This document shows positions 31,121 to 56,900 of a stretch of DNA of 64,000 nucleotides, piece after piece; position 1 is the stretch's first letter; every line of letters begins with the position of its first letter. The DNA is from Macrocystis pyrifera. Lineage: Eukaryota; Sar; Phaeophyceae; Laminariales; Laminariaceae. Below the pieces are notes generated by a model. The model was not told the DNA's origin. It worked only from the letters and a program-made list of their open reading frames with translations, and ran no database searches. Position numbers and translations under genes: made by a program. The stretch is from NCBI GenBank assembly GCA_031763025.1, contig JASSKH010000012.1, positions 2,480,001 through 2,544,000 on the forward strand, read 5' to 3'.

Positions 31121-39751
<8,631 letters not shown>

Positions 39752-44960: not shown

Positions 44961-47900
44961 ATGGCTGCCCTTCGAGATAAAATGAAAAAGGCAAAAGCAG
45001 GTGAGGTTCTTGCCACGCATACTAAAAGCCTCCAAATGAGGTGCAAACTAACCTTGTACTATTGCAGGACCTCGTTTACAGCCAGCTCCAGCCCGTCGAC
45101 TAATCCACGCCTGTGTCGCTACGGCAGTTCCTTTCGCTTGCTTGTTATGATGGACTGAGCTGTGGATGCTGTGTCACCGATGGTCTCTTCCGCTGTAGCC
45201 CCTGTACCCTAAATAACCACCGCCTGGACATCAGTAAAACCCTATAATGCGGTACATCCGATACCCGTTGGACCGGAGATCGGCGGCCTAACTCCAAACG
45301 CCATACTCTCTGTTCTCTGTGCGTTGTGCGCTGTGCGCTGTGCGCCGCGTGCTGCGGGTCTGCGATCTGCAAGTCTGCGAGTGACAGAGCTGCACGTGAG
45401 TACGTGACGCGCGATCCTCGATGCATGCCAGACATCGAAGACTCCAGACTCCAGACACCTCCTAGCCCGATACGAAAAATCAGGGGATGATTAGCCTGGC
45501 ACCCCGGGCCCCCTGGAGTTCATTCGACGAAGGCGAGCTCCTAAAATTGGTCGCCCGATCGATTAAAACAGGTCAAGGTGTCCAAGGTACGAGTGCACTT
45601 CGTGCTGAGATGACTGAGATGGAGCTAGATATCCATGTCCCGACCATCAACATCAAGCCGCTGCTAGAAATTGCTGGCAGTACATACACGTGAGCTACTG
45701 CCAAAATACCTGGTTAGGTGTTCAATGTTCAGCCATCGTTCCTGGTACCTTGTACCAGGGTAGTTGAACTTTTTCAGCACAGCTCGGATGAAAAATGGTG
45801 CCATCGAAGCGATCGAAGAGCGCAGGGGCTCATCGGAGACGTGCAACCCATCATGTGACAAGTGATACCCTGGAGCAGCGTAAAGCAGGATTGAGGATAC
45901 AGATAGCTACACGGTAGACGGAGTCTCGTGGCGAGTGCCACCTCTTCAGTGAGAACAAGGGTTTTGACAAAAAATTGAAAATCCGTTAGTGGTGAGTTCG
46001 GTGTAGAGTAGCTAGTGTAGAGGTCGGCACGGCAACAAAGAGCAGGCAATCACCATCTGGCACCTCGTACTCACTTTGCGCGCGTGCTCATCAAGCACGA
46101 AGACGCTTCGCTTCACACACTGCTGTGTGGAGATCACGATCTGCTGCTATACTGCTGTACGTTCTGTGTATGCACAGCAGATAGATAGTCTGTACTGTCC
46201 ATTCTACATATGTGGATAGATAGTCGATACGCATGGATATATAATTCATGATTATTTGTCGTTGTGTCGTTGTGCAATGTTGTGTTCGGCTGTCGGGCCG
46301 TATTGTACAGATCCCGCCCGGCCAACATGACCTGCAGACTCTGTGCTGCTGCAGATCGTGCAAATCATATATGTGAGGGATACGACCTGGTTACAGTAAG
46401 AAGCACAGCATTTCACCTCCGGCGATCTAATAAAGACTACGTCGAAGTTTTTTTCCATACTGAACATTGAACATATCTACATGACCGCATGGATAAGGGG
46501 AACACATCAGCGAAGAGATTTTTGGCGTGCGAGTTGTAGTTCGAGAGACATGGACATTTTTCATGATTCTGGGGAGGCGCCATTTCATGCCAGGCACCAG
46601 TAGGAAATATATGAATTATAATCAATACAATAGGTTTTCAAGCCGTATATCGGTCAATACGACGAGTAGTTCGACACTAAACGTCTTGAAATGCTCGCAT
46701 CAGTACTGGGAAGTCGTCCATGTCACTTTTTTTTCTGCAAGCCTACAAGGCTGTGATAATAAACGCCTGCCAAAGTACTAGAGCATTGTACTGAGCAATT
46801 TTGGGATCTGAGGGGGAAAATTGCCCGTCCGGGAACTTGTTTTTGCGGCATAGTTTTTGAGAGTTGAAAAACAAAGTTTGACAAGGTTGTTCTTCATAGC
46901 AATACAAAAAAGGTGAGGGCTGGTCTTTAATATTATTTTTTATCGTGCGTCAGTTGAGGTCAAAGTTTCCCGAAAAAAAAAAACGAGAAGTCGTAAAAGT
47001 AAGCCTTAAGAACGAAAAAAAAAGAAGAAAAAAGTCAAGCTTCAGTTTTTTCGTTTATTCGCATGGTCATGAAGATCAACCGTGCGAAATCATTTGTTTC
47101 AACTCTCAAAAGCCATGGTGCAAAGTTCCGAAGCCGAAATCTTCCGCCTGTCGCTGGAACCAGCTCGTATCTGCCTTGAAAGATCTAGATCATGAAACGG
47201 AGATCTGATCTGTCCGATGTTTCAAGCATCTGCTCTGCTTGCTGTCTGTGGGTCTGCGTGTTCCAAAAAGGGAGGAAGATCGAGCAGCTACCGCCAGCAG
47301 GCTTCTGCAGGCGTGCGAGAGTCATGGGCTGTTCTTCGTGACGGGACATGGCATCACACAAACTCGGAGACAGCTGGCCTTCGATAATTCCAGGTGACGT
47401 ATTAAACTCGGCAAGTCATGCGTCGCCTGCAAACTATTGAGTACGTACTTTATTGGAGAGCACTTGACCTCTGCTTCGTACTTTGTGGCCACAGAGCTGG
47501 TGTGTACAGGGTATCTCTCTACGATGAAGAATCAGCACAGACACATCGCTGTCAATGGGTAAAAAAAAAGAAACGGTATAATGTGAAGACAACATCACGG
47601 GAGGGCGCACGCAGCCGCCCGCCAATACAGGACCTAAACGACCATAGCGATTGCTTTGCATGCGCTCGCTCGCGAGGTCGCGGCACGTCACCGTCGTGTT
47701 CGATTGCTTGCGCGAAACGCGTGCACCATCCAGTCGCAATGGGGGGTGCGCGCAGCCGCCCACCAGTCCAGGGACAAAGCGACCATATGTGTTTGCTTTG
47801 CAGGCGCTCGCTCGCTAGGCCGCGTCGCCGTCGTGTTTGTAAGAATACAGCGGCGGCGTGCCGTGGCCTCGCGAAAGAGCGCTTGGAGAGCAATCGTTAT

Positions 47901-50900
47901 TGTCGTTTTGGCCCTCAGCTGCCGGGCGCCTGCTTGCGCCCTCGACCGCGATTAGATGGCGCAAGCACGCCGCGCCGCCGTCAGGCTCGTGTACTCACGC
48001 AACACGCTTGCGCCATCCAATGGCGGTGGATGGCGCACGCATCCGCCCGCCAATACAGGACCAACAATACATAGCTACAACATAGCGGCTGCTTTGCAGG
48101 CGTTCGCTCACGAGGCCGCGACACGCCGGCGTAGTGTCTGCCTGCTCGCACCAAACGGGTGCACCATCTAGTCACAGTGGACGCGCAGCCGCCCGGCCGT
48201 GTAGAGCCCAAACGACCATACATATATTTTTGCAGCGCTCCCTCGTAAGGCTGCGGCACGCCACCGTCGTGTTCGCGCGCTTGCGCCATGCTATCGTGGT
48301 GGCAGGCGCACGCAACTACCCACCAGTACAGGGCCGAAAGGACCATGAGAGGTTGGTTGGCAGGCGCTCGCTCGCTTGGCCGCGGCAGGTCGCCGTAGTG
48401 TGCGCCGCCGTCAGTCTCGTTTCCTCGTGCAAAGCGCGTGCACCATCCAGTCGTGGTGGAGGGCGCACGCAGCCGCCGGCCGGTACAGGGCTAAAACGAC
48501 CATAACGATTGCGATGCGCACGCTCGCCCGCGAGGCAGCGGCACGTCGCCGCCGTGTTCGATTGCTCGCGCAAAACGCGTGCGCCATCTAGTCACAGTGG
48601 GGGGCGCACGCTGTCGCCCGCCAGTACAGGGCCCAAACGACCATAACAGTTGCTTTGCAGGCGCTCGCTCGCTAGGCCGCGCCGTCGTCGTGTTTGTACG
48701 AATACGGCGGCAGCGAATCGCGGCCTCGCGAGCGAACGCTTGGAGAGCAATCGCTATTGTCGTTTTGTCCCTCAGCTGCCGGGCACCTGCGTGCGCCCTC
48801 GACCGCGATTAGATGGCGCAAGCGCGCCGCGCCGCCGGCAGGCTCGTGTGCTCACGCGACACGCTTGCGCCATTCAATCGCGGTGGAAGGCGCACGCATC
48901 CGCCCGCCAACACAGGGCCAACAATACATAGCTATAAGTGTTCGCTCGCAAGGCGGCCGTCGTGTCTGCCTACTCGCACCCAACGGGTGCATAATCTAGT
49001 CGCAGTGGACGCGCAGCCGCCCGGCCGTGTAGAGCTCAAACGACCATACCGATATATTTGCGGCGCTCACTCGTAAGGCTGCGGCACGCCACCGTCGTGT
49101 TCGCGCTTGCGTCATGCTATCGTGGTGGCAGGCGCACGCAACTACCCACCAGTACAGGGCCGAAAGGACAATGAGAGGTTGGTTGGCAGGCGCTCGCTCG
49201 CTTGGCCGCGGCACGTCGCCGTAGTGTGCGCCGCCGTCAGTCTCGTTTCCTCGTGCAAAGCGCGTGCACCATCCAGTCGTGGTGGAGGGCGCACGCAGCC
49301 GCCGGCCGGTACAGGGCTAAAACGACCATAACGCTTGCTTTGCACGCGCTCGCCCCGCGAGGCCCTGGCACGTCGCCGTCGTGTTCGATTGCTCGCGCAA
49401 AACGCGTACGCCATCCAGTCGCAATGGGGGGGTGTACTCGATAGGAGAGATGTACTCGATCTCATGTATGGCCGTAGTCGTATGACCATAGACCCTCGCA
49501 TCCCTACAATGCCGGGACGGGGCATGTCGGGTTTTCACCGACCAGGCAGACATTGCTTGCGCCAAGCGCGAAACGCCGTGAGGTGTCCGGCGAGCCACAT
49601 GAAGGGTGAGCTGCATCCTACTAAAAACCGCTTGTGAGGCGGACTTGCATATGGATGACAGCTTCAATGAGTTAGTTTAATTTCCGGTGTGGCCACTTCC
49701 AGAGACAGCAATGGGAGTACTATGTAACTGCCTCTTGGGTGCCTTGTCTTGAACACTACGTGATACGATCAATCCCCCTTGTGCAGAGCAAAGGTTCCTT
49801 ACTTCGCACAAATGATCTAACTAGACGACCAGCTGTGGGCGACCGCCAAAAAAGAAAAAGAAAACAAAAAAACGGTACCCTACTGGATGTCTAGCTCACG
49901 TAGTGAGCGGCATGTTTTACAGTGTCGTTGCCAACCGACGCCAACCCAACCCATATAATATATATAATAGGGGGGGGGGCGCACGCAGCCGCCCGCCAGT
50001 ATAGGGCCCAAACGACCATAGCGATTGCTTTGCAGGCGCTCGCTCGCTAGGCCGCGCCGCCGTCGTGTTTGTACGACTACGGCGGCGGCGAGCCGCGGCC
50101 TCGCAAACGAGTTCTTGGGAAGCAATCGCTGTTGTCGTTTTGGGCCCTAATCTGCCGGGCGCCTGCGTGCGCTCTCAACCACGATTAGATAGCGCAAGTG
50201 CGCCGCGCGGCCGTCAGGCTCGTTTGCTCACGCGGCACGCTTACGCCATGCAATCACGATGGCGGGCGCACGCAGCCGCCCACCAATCCAGGGCCAACAA
50301 TACCAACATACTACATAGTGGCTGCTTTCCAGGCGTTCCCTCACGAAGCCGCAGCACGCCGCCGTGGTGTCTGCGTTCTCGCTCCAAACGAGTGGGTCAT
50401 CTATTACGGGGGACCATAGTAAATAGGACCACATATTGCTAGTAAAAATAGGGAAACATATAGTTTTTTTTGTATACCATAGGTCCTATTAACTATGGAC
50501 CCCCGTAATAGTCGCAGTGGATACCCAGCCGCCCGGCCGTTTGCAGCCCACACAAACATTCCGATATATTTTCAGCGCTCGCTCGTAAGGCTGCGGCTCG
50601 CCACCGTGGTGTTCGCGCGCTTGTGTCATGCTATGGCGATGGCAAGCACACTCAGCCGCCCGTAAGTACAGGGCCAGAACGACCATGAGAGGTTGCTTGC
50701 CAGGCGCTCGCTCGCTAGCCCCTGGCACGTCGCCGTCGTGTGCGCCGCCGTCATTTTCGTTTTCTCGTGCAAAGCGCGTGCACCATCAGTCGTAGCGGAA
50801 GGCACAAGCAGCCGCCCGCCGGTCCAGGACTAAAACGACCATAGCGATTGCTTTGCAGACGCTCGCTCGCGAGGCCGTGGCACGTCGCCCTCGTGTTTGA

Positions 50901-53900
50901 TTGCTCGCGCAAAACGCGTGCGCCATCCAGTCAAAGTGGGGGGCGCACGCAGCCGCCTGCCAGGACGGGGCCCAAACGACCATAGCGATTGCTTCGCAGA
51001 CGCTCGCTTGCTAGGCCGCGCCGCGGTCGTGTTTGTACGAATACGGCGGCGGCGAACCGCGACTTCCCGAGCGATCGCTTGGAGAGCAATCGGTATTGTT
51101 TTGGCCCTCAGCTGCCGGGCGCCTGCGTGCGCCCTCGACCGCGATTAGATGGCGCAAGCACGCTGCGGCGTCGTCAGGCTCATTTGCTCACGCGGCACGC
51201 TTGCGCCATCCAATCGCGTGATGAAGGGCGCACGCATCCACCCGCCAGTACAGGGCCAACAATACATTGCTACAACATAGCGGCTGGTTTGCAGACGTTC
51301 GCTCGCGAGGTCGCGGCACGCCATCGTCATGTCTTCGCTCTCGCGCCAAACGGGTGCACCATCTGGTCGGAATGGACGCGCAGCCGTCCGGCCGTTTGTC
51401 CAAACGACCATACTTACATGTTTACAGCCCTCGCTCGTAAGGCTGCGGCACGCTACCGTCGTGTTTGCTCGCTTGCGCCATGCTATCGCGGTGGCAGGTG
51501 CACGTAGACGCCCGCCAGTACAGGGCCAAAACGACCATGAGAGGTTGGTTGGTAGGCGCTCGCTCGCGAGGCCGCGGCACGTCGCCGTCGTGTGCGCCGC
51601 CGTCAGGCTCGTTTTCTTGTGCAAACCGCGTGCACCATTCCATCGTAGTGAAGGGCGCACGCAACCGCCCTCCGGTACTGGGCTAAAACGACCATAGCGA
51701 TTGCTTTGCACGCGCTTAGTCGCGAGGGCTCGGCACGCCGCCGTCATGTCCGTCTGCTCGCGCAAAACGCGCGCGCCTACCAGTCGCAATGGGAGGCGCA
51801 CGCAGGCGCTCGCCAGCACAGGGCCCAAACGACCACAGCGATTGCTTTGCAGGCGCTCGCTCGCTAGGCCACACCGCCGTCGTGTTTGTACGAATACGGC
51901 GGCGGCGTGCCGCGGCCTCGTGAGCTAGCGCTTGGAGAGCAGTCGCTATTGTCGTTTTGGCCCTAATCTGCCGGGCGCGTGCGTGCGCCCTCGACCGCGA
52001 TTTGATGGCGCAAGCGAGCCGCGCCGCCGTCAGGCCCGCTTGCTCACGCCGCACTCTTGCCATATTCAACCCCGAAGGAGGCCGCACGCAACCGCCCGCC
52101 ATTACAGGTGGCCAACAATACATAAATACTACATAGCGGCTGTTTTGCAGACGTTCACTGGCGAGGTCGCGGCACGCCGCCGTCGTGTCTGCCTGCTCGC
52201 GCCAAACGGGTGCACCATCTAATCGCAGTGGATGCGCAGCACCCGGCCGTTTACAGCCCAACGACCATACCGATGTATTTGCAGCGCTCGCTCGTAAATC
52301 TGCGGTACTCCACCGTCGTGTTCGCGCTCTTGTGCCATGCTATCGTGGTGGCAGGCACATGCAGCCGCCCGCCAGTACACGGTCAAAACGACCATGAGAG
52401 GTCGCTTGGCAGGCGCTCGCTCGCGAGGGCCGCGCCACGTCGCCGTCGTGTGCGCCGCCGCCAGGCTCGTTTTCTCGTGTAAAGCGCGTGCACCATCCAA
52501 TGGTAGTGGAGGGCGAACGCAGCCGCCGGCCGGTACAGGGCTAAAACGCCCCTAGTGATTGCTTTGCACGCGCTCGCTCGCGAGGCCGCGTCACGTCGCC
52601 GTCGTGTTCGATTGCTCACGCCAAACGCGTGAGCCGTCCAGTCGTGGTGGAGGGCGCACGCAACCGCCTGCTGGGACAGGGCCCAAACGACCATAGCGAT
52701 TGCTTGGGAGGCGCTCGCTCGCAAGGCCGCAGCACGCCACTGATGTGGTCGTCGCAAACGCCGCGCCGCCGTCAAGTTCATCTGCTCGAGCGGCATGTTT
52801 GTGCCATCTATTCGTGGTGGCGAGCGCACGCAGCCGCCTGCGTGTACACGGCCAAAAGTACCGTAGCGGTTGGTTTGGAGGAGCTGTGGCACGCCGCCGC
52901 CGTCTTCGTTGCTGGCGCGGCGCGCTTGCACTATCCAATTACCGTGGAGGGCGCCCGCAGCCACCCGGCTGTTTAGGGCCGAACGAACACAGCGATATTG
53001 TTGCAGGCGCTCGCTCGCAAGGCCGCGGCATGCCGCCATCATATTCATACGAATACGACGGTGCCATGCCGCGGCCTCACGAACGAGTGCTGGTCGTTTT
53101 AGCCCTAAACTCCTGGGCGCCTTTGTGCGCCCTCCGCCGCGATTGGACGGCGCAAGCACGCTGCGCGGCGATCGTGTTTGTCCGCTCGCGCGAAACGCGT
53201 GTTCCATCCAATCGCGGTGGAGGGCGCACGCAGACGCCCGGCATTGTAGGGCCAAAACGACCATAGCGATTGTTTTCGAGGCGCTCGCTCGCGAGGCCGC
53301 GGCACACGCGGCGGTCGTATTCGTACGAACACGACGGTGCGACACCATGTTGGGAGACACCCGATTGTTACTTGTGTGTTTACGAGTGTGTGAGACCGAC
53401 GTATATTGCAGCAGCAGCAGCACTAGCAGCACTAGCGGCAGCTGGAGCAGGGGTATTGGCCTGCTTTGCAGGGCGATGCGTTCAATTTGGCACAGAAGGC
53501 CCCTTCAACAAATTGTTTGGGGAAGATTTGTTGAATTTAGAATGGGATCATCATTTTTGCAGTTTATAGGACAAGGGTTGCGGTTGTGTGGGGCTTTTCA
53601 ACAAAGGTACGGACAAGTAGGCTTGGTCTTGCTAACCGTCCTCGCGCGCCTAGCAGCAACGTGCAGCGTGCGCGTCGTACGGCCGCTTGCGCCGGATGCG
53701 GGGTGCGCCATCTACGGCGGGGGTGCCCCTGAAAATTTCTTGGAAATTTCTGAGGGTCCTCACTTGAGGAGCTCTGTATATCAGCCAAACAACGAATACC
53801 TGGTACAAGAAAACGTGGACGCTTAACTCGACGAGCAATCCCATAGCCTATGTCTATGCCGGAACATGTAGCCATAACATGAGTTGATGTTGGGTACTGA

Positions 53901-56900
53901 TGATGATGATGAATATGTTCTCGCCAAAGAGGCTGTGACAAAAATGCATCTCGATGGGAAAAAACAAACCATCACGAAATAGCGCTCACGGCATCCCCAG
54001 TTCGTAAAGGGAAACGGTACTATTACGGGGGACCATAGTAAATAAGACTAAATTTCGGTAGAAAAAATAAGTAAATATATAGGTTTTTGTGTGTGCCATA
54101 GGTCCTATTAACTATGGACCACCGTAATAACGAGGTGTGGCATACCAAATCCCATATCAAACAAATATTACCAGGAACTTATCCATTGTATTGCATGTAC
54201 ACCCGAAAAAGAAAAGACTACAGGGCCTCAGGTGAGAAGCCCCCATCAGTCTTAAATGATTATTACCAACACGTGCTACCCCTACTATATAGCACGCCTC
54301 CATACCCTACCCCAGCAGCCCGAGTTGCTTCATTGGGCCGACGCTGTAATCGGCAATGCCACGGTAGGGGTGGTGGCTTATGGAGGTGGTGCCTTATTTG
54401 CCGAGGTTCTCACTCGCACAAATAGCTCAATATGCTCATCCCGAAAACATGGCTTCGAACAAGTTTGTCCGCGCATTCCGACAAAGATTTCTATGCGCTA
54501 CGTATTAATAATCCCCAAACAACTACGGTACACTAGTGACAGTATCGTTCTCACGAATTGTATGCTAATGGTTTCTCAATGGAGGAACTCAGCCGGTCAG
54601 AAAATGTGTATCAGTCTTATCTGAAATAAAGGTTATTTTGTACCTATTGTGGTAATCGACATGTACCTTGTATTTTCGATCAGACTGGTAGTCAAAAGCG
54701 CAAGCCTTACCGTGGGATGAGCCTAATCGTCTCTGTTTTCGACCCTTTTCCCCCTCGAGGTCCCAAAAGGTTTATATGTATGAAACCTGTCTTTTTGGGG
54801 CGCGTCAAGGCGGTCTCTTTTGACCTTATTATACTGGTTGTAGTGCAGAGGGTGGTCAGTCAAGGGGTTAAACCGCGGTCTCCTATAATCTTGGCTTTCC
54901 AAGGCAAGCATTGTCTGGGCGAGCAACGCCAAGTCGGGGGGTAAGCCGCCGCCCCTCTACGCACTTGACTCTAGGGTACGCCAGGTCTAGGGTAGCTCAC
55001 ATACCACAGAAGCTATGTTACACATTCACGCTGTTGCGGCATACCTGTTATGTATTTCGTGACAATAATTTACTGGCTACAGCGAAGTTAGTCTTTCGGC
55101 CTTACACATATGCTATGATTATATTGAAGCGATGGAAACAAACACAAACCCAAAATAGATTCCAAGTATAGACAGATCGACAGGGTTGCTTTAAAAACGA
55201 CTTACAAATGGTCATTCGAGCGAGCATCAAGGTAAACAAACCCCGGTTCATTTTCACAGGACTATTTTGATGGAAAACTGGACAATTTTCATGTCGTTTC
55301 CTACAGCAGCCAAAAAATCAATGCACTAATTTCGACTAAACACAAGCCATTCATTACCATTTTCACCCATCCATACCCTACATTCCATTATTATCCCTAT
55401 TGTTGGCGGGAAAACAGGCGATTCTTCTCGCTGCCCGAGGCGACCAAGCGAAAAATTCCGGCGAAGAAAGGCGGTTTCACGCGGGGTTACATCGGCTTCG
55501 GCGGCGAAAGCGGCTCCCACCTTCTCGAGTGCAAGGAGGCGTTCAGCTACGGGTGAGGGGCGAGAAAAACAAAATGTTAAGCCACACACCTCGGACAGAT
55601 TTTCTCTTCCTACTTGATGAGCTAGATCTTTCAGGGCACACGTATTTATGATCTGCGTGATCTGATTCATGCTGCCGGGTGGGAGCAATGTAATATGCTT
55701 GATCATGTAGGAAGTGTTTTCCTGGGCTGGATCTGTGCTGTACAGATACTGCACAAAATCACGACAGGTTGGGATCTATCTGATCTATCTGTGGATGGTC
55801 TATCTGTCCGAGGTGTGGTTAATTGCGAACCGAGCGAGATGCTAATTTTCACCTGATGCATAGGAGCGCCCTTTCGAGATTTCTGAAGCCTCTTTGTTCT
55901 TGATGAAACAAATTGTTTTCGGTCTGAAAGTTCTCATCAATTTCTCAAAACTTTTGTTTTAACGGAAAGAGGCGGTTTGTTTTCACTGCGGAGAAACATA
56001 CCTTTGGCAGCACCAGCAAAAAACTACGTACTACCGTCCACCACCCACCAACGCACACAAGTTGACAACAGTTTCAAACATCCTATGATAACGACAGAGC
56101 CTTGCCACGGTTACGGTTGCACTTTTAAGCTGAAACATGTCTCGCAGTATTTTTGGATAGAATTGTATGTTGAATTCAATTTCGCCGTCCGATAAGGTAT
56201 CGTACATGTTCCATTCCGACTTGAATCGAGTATCTTCCGATAAGGTATCGTACACGTTCCATTCCGACTTGAATCGAGTATTTTTCTAGGACCACAGTAG
56301 TAGCCTCTCTTCGGTCACTCTCGACCAATATGTATCCCATTTTCCCTTGCCGAAGGCTCCTTCTTACGCCTTCCGTCCTTGGCAAACCCTCGTTTACCGT
56401 ACCCCTCGTCGATGTTCCACCCCCACGGTGTATATTCATGTAACAATAGTCATTCGACACCTAGCCTATTTTATTGTGTACTTTTTTTCTCTTCCTTTTT
56501 TTAATCATCACTTTCACTGTGCAGCTTAACTCGTAGGAGGATTTACCCTCAGCGGTCTTCTTCTGGACAAGCCTTGGTCACAGGTGTCGTCCCTTCTCCC
56601 CCCCCGGTACGTGCCTTGATTTTTATCGCGCATAGGGTTCAGCATTCCCACTGCTCGTCGATTTTTATCGAATGTAGCTAACTCACGCTTTCGCGCTTTC
56701 ATGTAATCAATTTGTATGTAAGAAAAAGTCCTTACGAGTATGCACTCTCGGTGAGACTTGAACCCACGAACTTGATCTTAGTAGGCACGCGGACCACCTA
56801 CCAAGCCACCGGGGACGCCGGGCGGTACTGTACGATATCGGGATTGTCTTCCAATTTTATCAAATGTTGGGCGGAGCATAGCAGGGGTACCCCGAGTCAA

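Follow-up and report, generated by a model that had tools for sequence, protein, structure and literature searches.

Higher-order repeats of the alpha-satellite type are usually arranged head to tail, are centromeric and are not known to have a coding origin. In the giant kelp Macrocystis pyrifera, a tandem array of short monomers lies within a 64,000-nucleotide stretch of contig JASSKH010000012.1 (positions 2,480,001 to 2,544,000; C192:2480001-2544000), hereafter called the window. Like alpha satellite, this array has monomer types that diverge within a unit, units that are more alike, and irregular edges; unlike alpha satellite, it lies in a predicted intron, contains an inverted monomer and has a likely coding origin. 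A second comparison is TmSat2 of the beetle Tribolium madens. TmSat2 is described as abundant and probably (peri)centromeric, and its 704-bp monomers consist of seven subunits from a ~110-bp ancestor (PMC13081366). A long unit of related short subunits, some of them inverted, and large palindrome-like structures are the points of likeness, whereas the kelp array was found at a single intronic locus, inverts one of its six monomer types and has a coding repeat as a relative. Units with inverted subunits are already known from Tribolium satellites (PMC13081366); by our comparison, a likely coding origin, a single intronic locus and a surviving coding relative would set the kelp array apart. A literature search found no paper whose title or abstract opening describes this array.

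On the evidence of the sequence, we consider it likely that this is a non-coding, satellite-like array, found at a single locus, and that its seed was a unit of 141 bp (47 codons) from an IQ-like tandem repeat in a protein-coding gene. The IQ-like reading of the array is probably a relic. A profile grown from one monomer gave 37 matches, 31 on the plus strand and 6 on the minus strand, all within the array (Table 1) and none elsewhere in the window; two of them (49378-49431 and 49962-50056) come from a single monomer split by an insertion. The period obtained with Tandem Repeats Finder (TRF) was ~141 bp. Six monomers in the order a, b (inverted), c, d, e, f form a higher-order unit with a spacing of 825-860 bp. 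Together with an incomplete left edge and a right edge that is altered, five aligned units (H1 to H5) make up an array of 5.7 kb. The first-pass annotation of this DNA had proposed ~142-bp monomers in a sixfold unit of ~850-860 bp repeated about five times, and both the repeat search and the alignment of the monomer classes confirmed this organisation with its six types. The pairwise identity of H1 to H5 was 82.9-91.3%, with H1 and H2 the closest pair (H3 was aligned with both of its insertions removed, at 878 bp). Monomers of the same type were 79-86% identical and those of different types 60-77%. When 36 monomers were placed in one tree with six coding dimers (described below), types a to f were recovered with support of 0.88-1.00, the edge copies at 47600, 52771, 52905, 53167 and 53172 being excluded from the type recovery, and the coding dimers split from all array monomers with support of 0.94.

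The array shares two features of satellite or minisatellite DNA with higher-order repeats: a repeating multi-monomer unit, with units more alike than monomers, and a non-coding character as judged from stops, indels, codon positions and the inversion. The abundance of a satellite, at many loci or in heterochromatin, was not found. We searched the 537-Mb genome (223 contigs; match counts are lower bounds) with 861 bp of the array at the DNA level and obtained its own locus and weak matches in a gene on scaffold C208. Therefore, we term the array satellite-like and local.

The evidence for a coding past comes from this C208 gene. A protein search of the genome with 94 residues of the monomer consensus gave five separate alignments at C208:4451725-4452640, with 57-67% identity, E values from 3.9e-16 to 2.5e-6 and no internal stops; four fall inside a 468-aa frame and one inside a 387-aa frame. 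The other matches were at C208:10.08 Mb (5.1e-8), C196:11.45 Mb (7.6e-7) and C223:10.31 Mb (4.9e-5). The last of these lies in a kelp frame of 743 aa, clearly an IQ protein by its Pfam match (1.7e-28). The DNA of the 4.45-Mb locus (L033) matched the array at 1.3e-21, independently of the derived consensus. In the reciprocal search with the C208:4.45 Mb repeat, the array was the best match outside the gene (7.2e-19), above the paralogue at C208:10.08 Mb (5.9e-11). The first-pass annotation had envisaged a donor gene elsewhere in the genome, and the search with the IQ consensus did find an in-frame relative. The L033 repeat comprises about six dimers and a half, spaced at 138, 138, 141, 141 and 142 bp; each dimer holds two IQ-like motifs and is an in-frame homologue of the array monomer, with 53-64% protein identity to the array consensus. 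The frame has no stops across dimers 2-6. The paralogue is open over 491 aa, and its N-terminal, repeat and C-terminal parts resemble those of the 4.45-Mb gene (35% over 350 positions; 57% over a 101-residue C-terminal stretch). These comparisons establish homology, in the IQ frame, between the array monomer and the repeats of a small family of genes on C208. In contrast to the array, the C208 frames include an N-terminal part, a stretch of hydrophobic residues and a C-terminal part that is basic, and they contain no inversion.

The family itself, at L033:4261-6193 and L034:4487-5959, is a group of kelp proteins in which the hydrophobic stretch precedes the IQ-like tandem repeats; it has no Pfam match above the cut-off, and a further match, of 39 residues, lies on C216.

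Divergence was also compared at codon positions 1, 2 and 3, with a one-sided permutation p for an excess at the third position. The gene dimers gave 0.337, 0.323 and 0.429 (p 0.022; with a second alignment p 0.050, which makes the excess borderline), and the array consensus against the gene dimers gave 0.289, 0.282 and 0.417 (p 0.010). Where five or all six of the dimers agree, the consensus differs at 2/29, 4/29 and 5/23 sites, respectively.

It is unlikely that the IQ text is a coincidence, with a GC-rich satellite monomer that happens to read like IQ and a C208 gene that acquired satellite sequence. Such a coincidence does not readily account for the stop-free frame of dimers 2-6 or for a 10.08-Mb paralogue of equal architecture with weaker IQ-like repeats. 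Moreover, it is in its IQ frame that the array matches the open frame of the gene, and the clear IQ protein on C223 matches the consensus. One frame of the monomer consensus is open over all 47 residues and contains two IQ-like motifs, spaced by 23; 3 of 5000 dinucleotide shuffles gave an open cycle with two IQ-like patterns so spaced, the pattern having been chosen post hoc. At the motif position in the IQ frame of 34 monomers (three profile matches without that position were excluded), 12 read IQ, 3 VQ or MQ, 8 have a stop codon at Q and 11 read otherwise; type e monomers read M-L at the motif in 5 of 5 cases. The first-pass statement that each monomer encodes IQ-like text on the strand of the host gene did not hold, as 15 of 34 read I/V/M-Q and one of the six types is inverted in every unit.

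A coincidence draws support from the Pfam results, from the genome-wide IQ search described below and from the borderline third-position excess in the gene. The IQ model (PF00612) scored 16.3 and 17.4 bits on the array and 12.4 bits on the C208 gene, all under the curated cut-off of 20.3. At E<=1 the model matched 3 of the 34 monomers (best 0.0021), and other families matched at most one monomer each. Several observations weigh against our interpretation. For the array consensus, Pfam gave no IQ match at E<=10. Unrelated families matched three control frames from that consensus, with best values of 4.6e-5, 0.0046 and 0.018, the third barely over its cut-off. Since control frames match equally well by chance, Pfam alone proves no IQ ancestry, and we rejected the Pfam IQ scan as proof of it. 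A genome-wide IQ search, in which 150 of 198 candidates were scored, lists 24 matches; the array is not among them, nor are the C208 genes. The link to canonical IQ sequences rests on the post-hoc pattern and on the match of the C223 frame to the consensus. In addition, the real monomers showed a weaker third-position excess against the gene dimers (0.391, 0.375 and 0.451, p 0.077), and the excess between array and gene can come entirely from the gene side, where it is borderline. In the C208:4.45 Mb gene, the C-terminal match contains one TGA, and after dimer 6 the frame shifts by one base within a T run that precedes dimer 7 (L033:5480-5510); the gene may be damaged, or the T run may hold a homopolymer assembly error. 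Finally, the non-repeat parts of the donor gene were sought in the window, with matches of E 0.7 or worse only, and the capture itself is unseen. The first-pass annotation had described a satellite-like amplification of a coding, calmodulin-binding IQ module. The amplification and a probable IQ-like coding past, given the homologous C208 frames, stand, whereas the calmodulin-binding label is not supported by the sub-threshold scores and the genome-wide IQ matches listed. A PDB search with the consensus gave a single match (E 0.51), and no relatives were found in a viral collection. A 19-base pattern had two bacterial matches, which we took as chance.

An open 47-codon consensus with two IQ-like motifs and a related gene on C208 might also point to a gene block, nested or alternatively spliced, from which an IQ-repeat protein is still made, but we consider this extremely improbable. 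A sixth of the monomers are inverted. Of the 1734 codons in the IQ frame, 31 are stops, a number within the range of the other five readings (27-38), and eight monomers carry a stop at Q. The longest open frame, with the insertions removed, is 305 aa, and 21 of 200 shuffles gave one as long. Indels between units, counted pairwise so that a single event is counted several times, comprised 36 of 1 base, 22 of 2, 8 of 3, 4 of 10, 4 of 18 (at an insertion edge) and 4 of 19; most break the frame, which is not kept between higher-order units. No third-position excess was found between array types (0.287, 0.297 and 0.313, p 0.29), within array types (0.173, 0.157 and 0.150, p 0.81) or among all array pairs in the real-monomer alignment (0.280, 0.268 and 0.291, p 0.30). 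The array thus has neither the open frame nor the codon-position bias of a functional tandem protein-coding repeat. The inversion, the stops, the frame length and the flat codon positions argue strongly against the nested gene and the alternative exon block that the first-pass annotation had left open, while its third option, a decaying fragment, fits the stops, the frame-breaking indels and the absent codon-position signal.

We give next to no weight to an assembly artefact, with the repeat collapsed or shuffled: although one assembly was examined and homopolymer errors may survive base polishing, the array spans 5.7 kb, while the PacBio reads used for the giant kelp assembly, if it is the same one, had an average length of 15.8 kb at ~100x (PMC10498591), and reads can be placed because the units differ by 9-17% and H3 has its own insertions.

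A coding seed followed by local amplification would run as follows. A piece of the repeat of an IQ-like gene, already tandem and prone to unequal exchange, would have reached the predicted dioxygenase intron. Coding constraint would then have been lost and the monomers would have diverged. One monomer was presumably inverted once, before block amplification; unequal crossing-over or replication slippage would then have multiplied the six-monomer block, the latest exchange being that between H1 and H2. H3 alone received two insertions, a 530-bp dispersed repeat at a G tract and a MITE-like element at a TA. The origins of satellites are usually lost. Here, a coding relative with a near-equal period (138-142 bp) survives in the same genome, so the change from a coding repeat to a non-coding array can be studied. 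This suggests that long coding tandem repeats, which are prone to unequal exchange, can seed satellites.

In this array, an inverted monomer is an integral part of a higher-order unit that lies within an intron. Type b is inverted at the same position in each unit and accounts for all six minus-strand profile matches. The inversion junctions line up across all five units in the unit alignment, which argues for a single inversion preceding amplification. Predicted RNA folding (12 stretches in three of the five units, 60 shuffles each) gave z values of -6.6 to -10.8 across the inverted monomer and of -0.85 to 0.95 for other neighbouring pairs. These predictions suggest that, if transcribed, the inverted monomers could form hairpins with neighbouring monomers. 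It is very unlikely that the array serves as a natural source of RNA hairpins, with intron transcripts cut to small RNAs that would regulate the host dioxygenase gene or, by shared sequence, the C208 IQ-like genes. Most likely, the array does nothing except lengthen the intron.

The intronic location proposed in the first-pass annotation was supported. Removal of a GT...AG intron leaves the two predicted exons in one frame, and once joined, their text has a DIOX_N match of 6.1e-20 (the downstream frame alone, 8.5e-7); we place the array in the intron because of this in-frame match. The array occupies most of the predicted intron. No Pfam match to a dioxygenase catalytic domain was found on the downstream frames scanned, and simple dioxygenase motifs over 28 kb downstream gave just two stray matches in one frame. 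Rfam and tRNA scans of the window gave no matches.

Table 1. Coordinates of the array, its units and insertions, and the predicted host-gene parts (positions in the window).
Feature	Positions	Strand	Basis
Tandem array, ~141-bp monomers, probably IQ-like in origin, six-monomer organisation a-b-c-d-e-f	47600..53301		profile matches, repeat families, unit alignment
Unit H1, 860 bp	47693..48552	+	profile matches, unit alignment
Unit H2, 825 bp, 91.3% identical to H1	48553..49377	+	profile matches, unit alignment
Unit H3, split by two insertions	49378..50890	+	profile matches, unit alignment, repeat comparison
Unit H4, 852 bp	50891..51742	+	profile matches, unit alignment
Unit H5, 858 bp	51743..52600	+	profile matches, unit alignment
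Right edge, rearranged monomers (a, x, y, inverted b, c-like)	52601..53301	+	profile matches, monomer identities, tree
Inverted b, H1	47863..47975	-	profile match
Inverted b, H2	48719..48832	-	profile match
Inverted b, H3	50094..50209	-	profile match
Inverted b, H4	51058..51167	-	profile match
Inverted b, H5	51911..52024	-	profile match
Inverted b, right edge	53070..53167	-	profile match
Host-gene exon (predicted), DIOX_N first part	47271..47393	+	in-frame join, DIOX_N match
Host intron (predicted, GT...AG, 8024 bp), contains array	47394..55417	+	splice join
Host-gene exon (predicted), DIOX_N second part	55418..55552	+	in-frame join, DIOX_N match
Dispersed repeat in G tract of monomer a, H3	49432..49961	+	94% copy at 31732-32139; G runs at ends
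MITE-like element, terminal inverted repeats, TA both sides, in monomer d of H3	50404..50508		eleven places in window; empty site in other units

Both insertions in the array are transposon-like, had gone unmentioned in the first-pass annotation and are confined to H3. The smaller has the terminal inverted repeats and, against the empty sites in the other units, the TA target duplication of a TA-inserting miniature inverted-repeat transposable element (MITE). The MITE-like family to which it belongs is ~105 bp long, has terminal inverted repeats TTACGGGGGACCATAG... and a TA insertion site, and occurs at eleven places in the 64 kb, 54020-54129 among them. The larger insertion belongs to a ~530-bp dispersed repeat with relatives at 31732-32139, 22835-22525, 21646-21548, 42494-42304, 37928-38015, L033:2208-2748 and L033:2757-3278. 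Its empty site is a plain G tract in the sister units. Counted by eye, at least six G stand on both sides of 5 of 10 copies and on one side of the other 5. The element may insert at G tracts or carry them. A ~113-base run at 32135-32247, nearly all G, adjoins a copy of this repeat.

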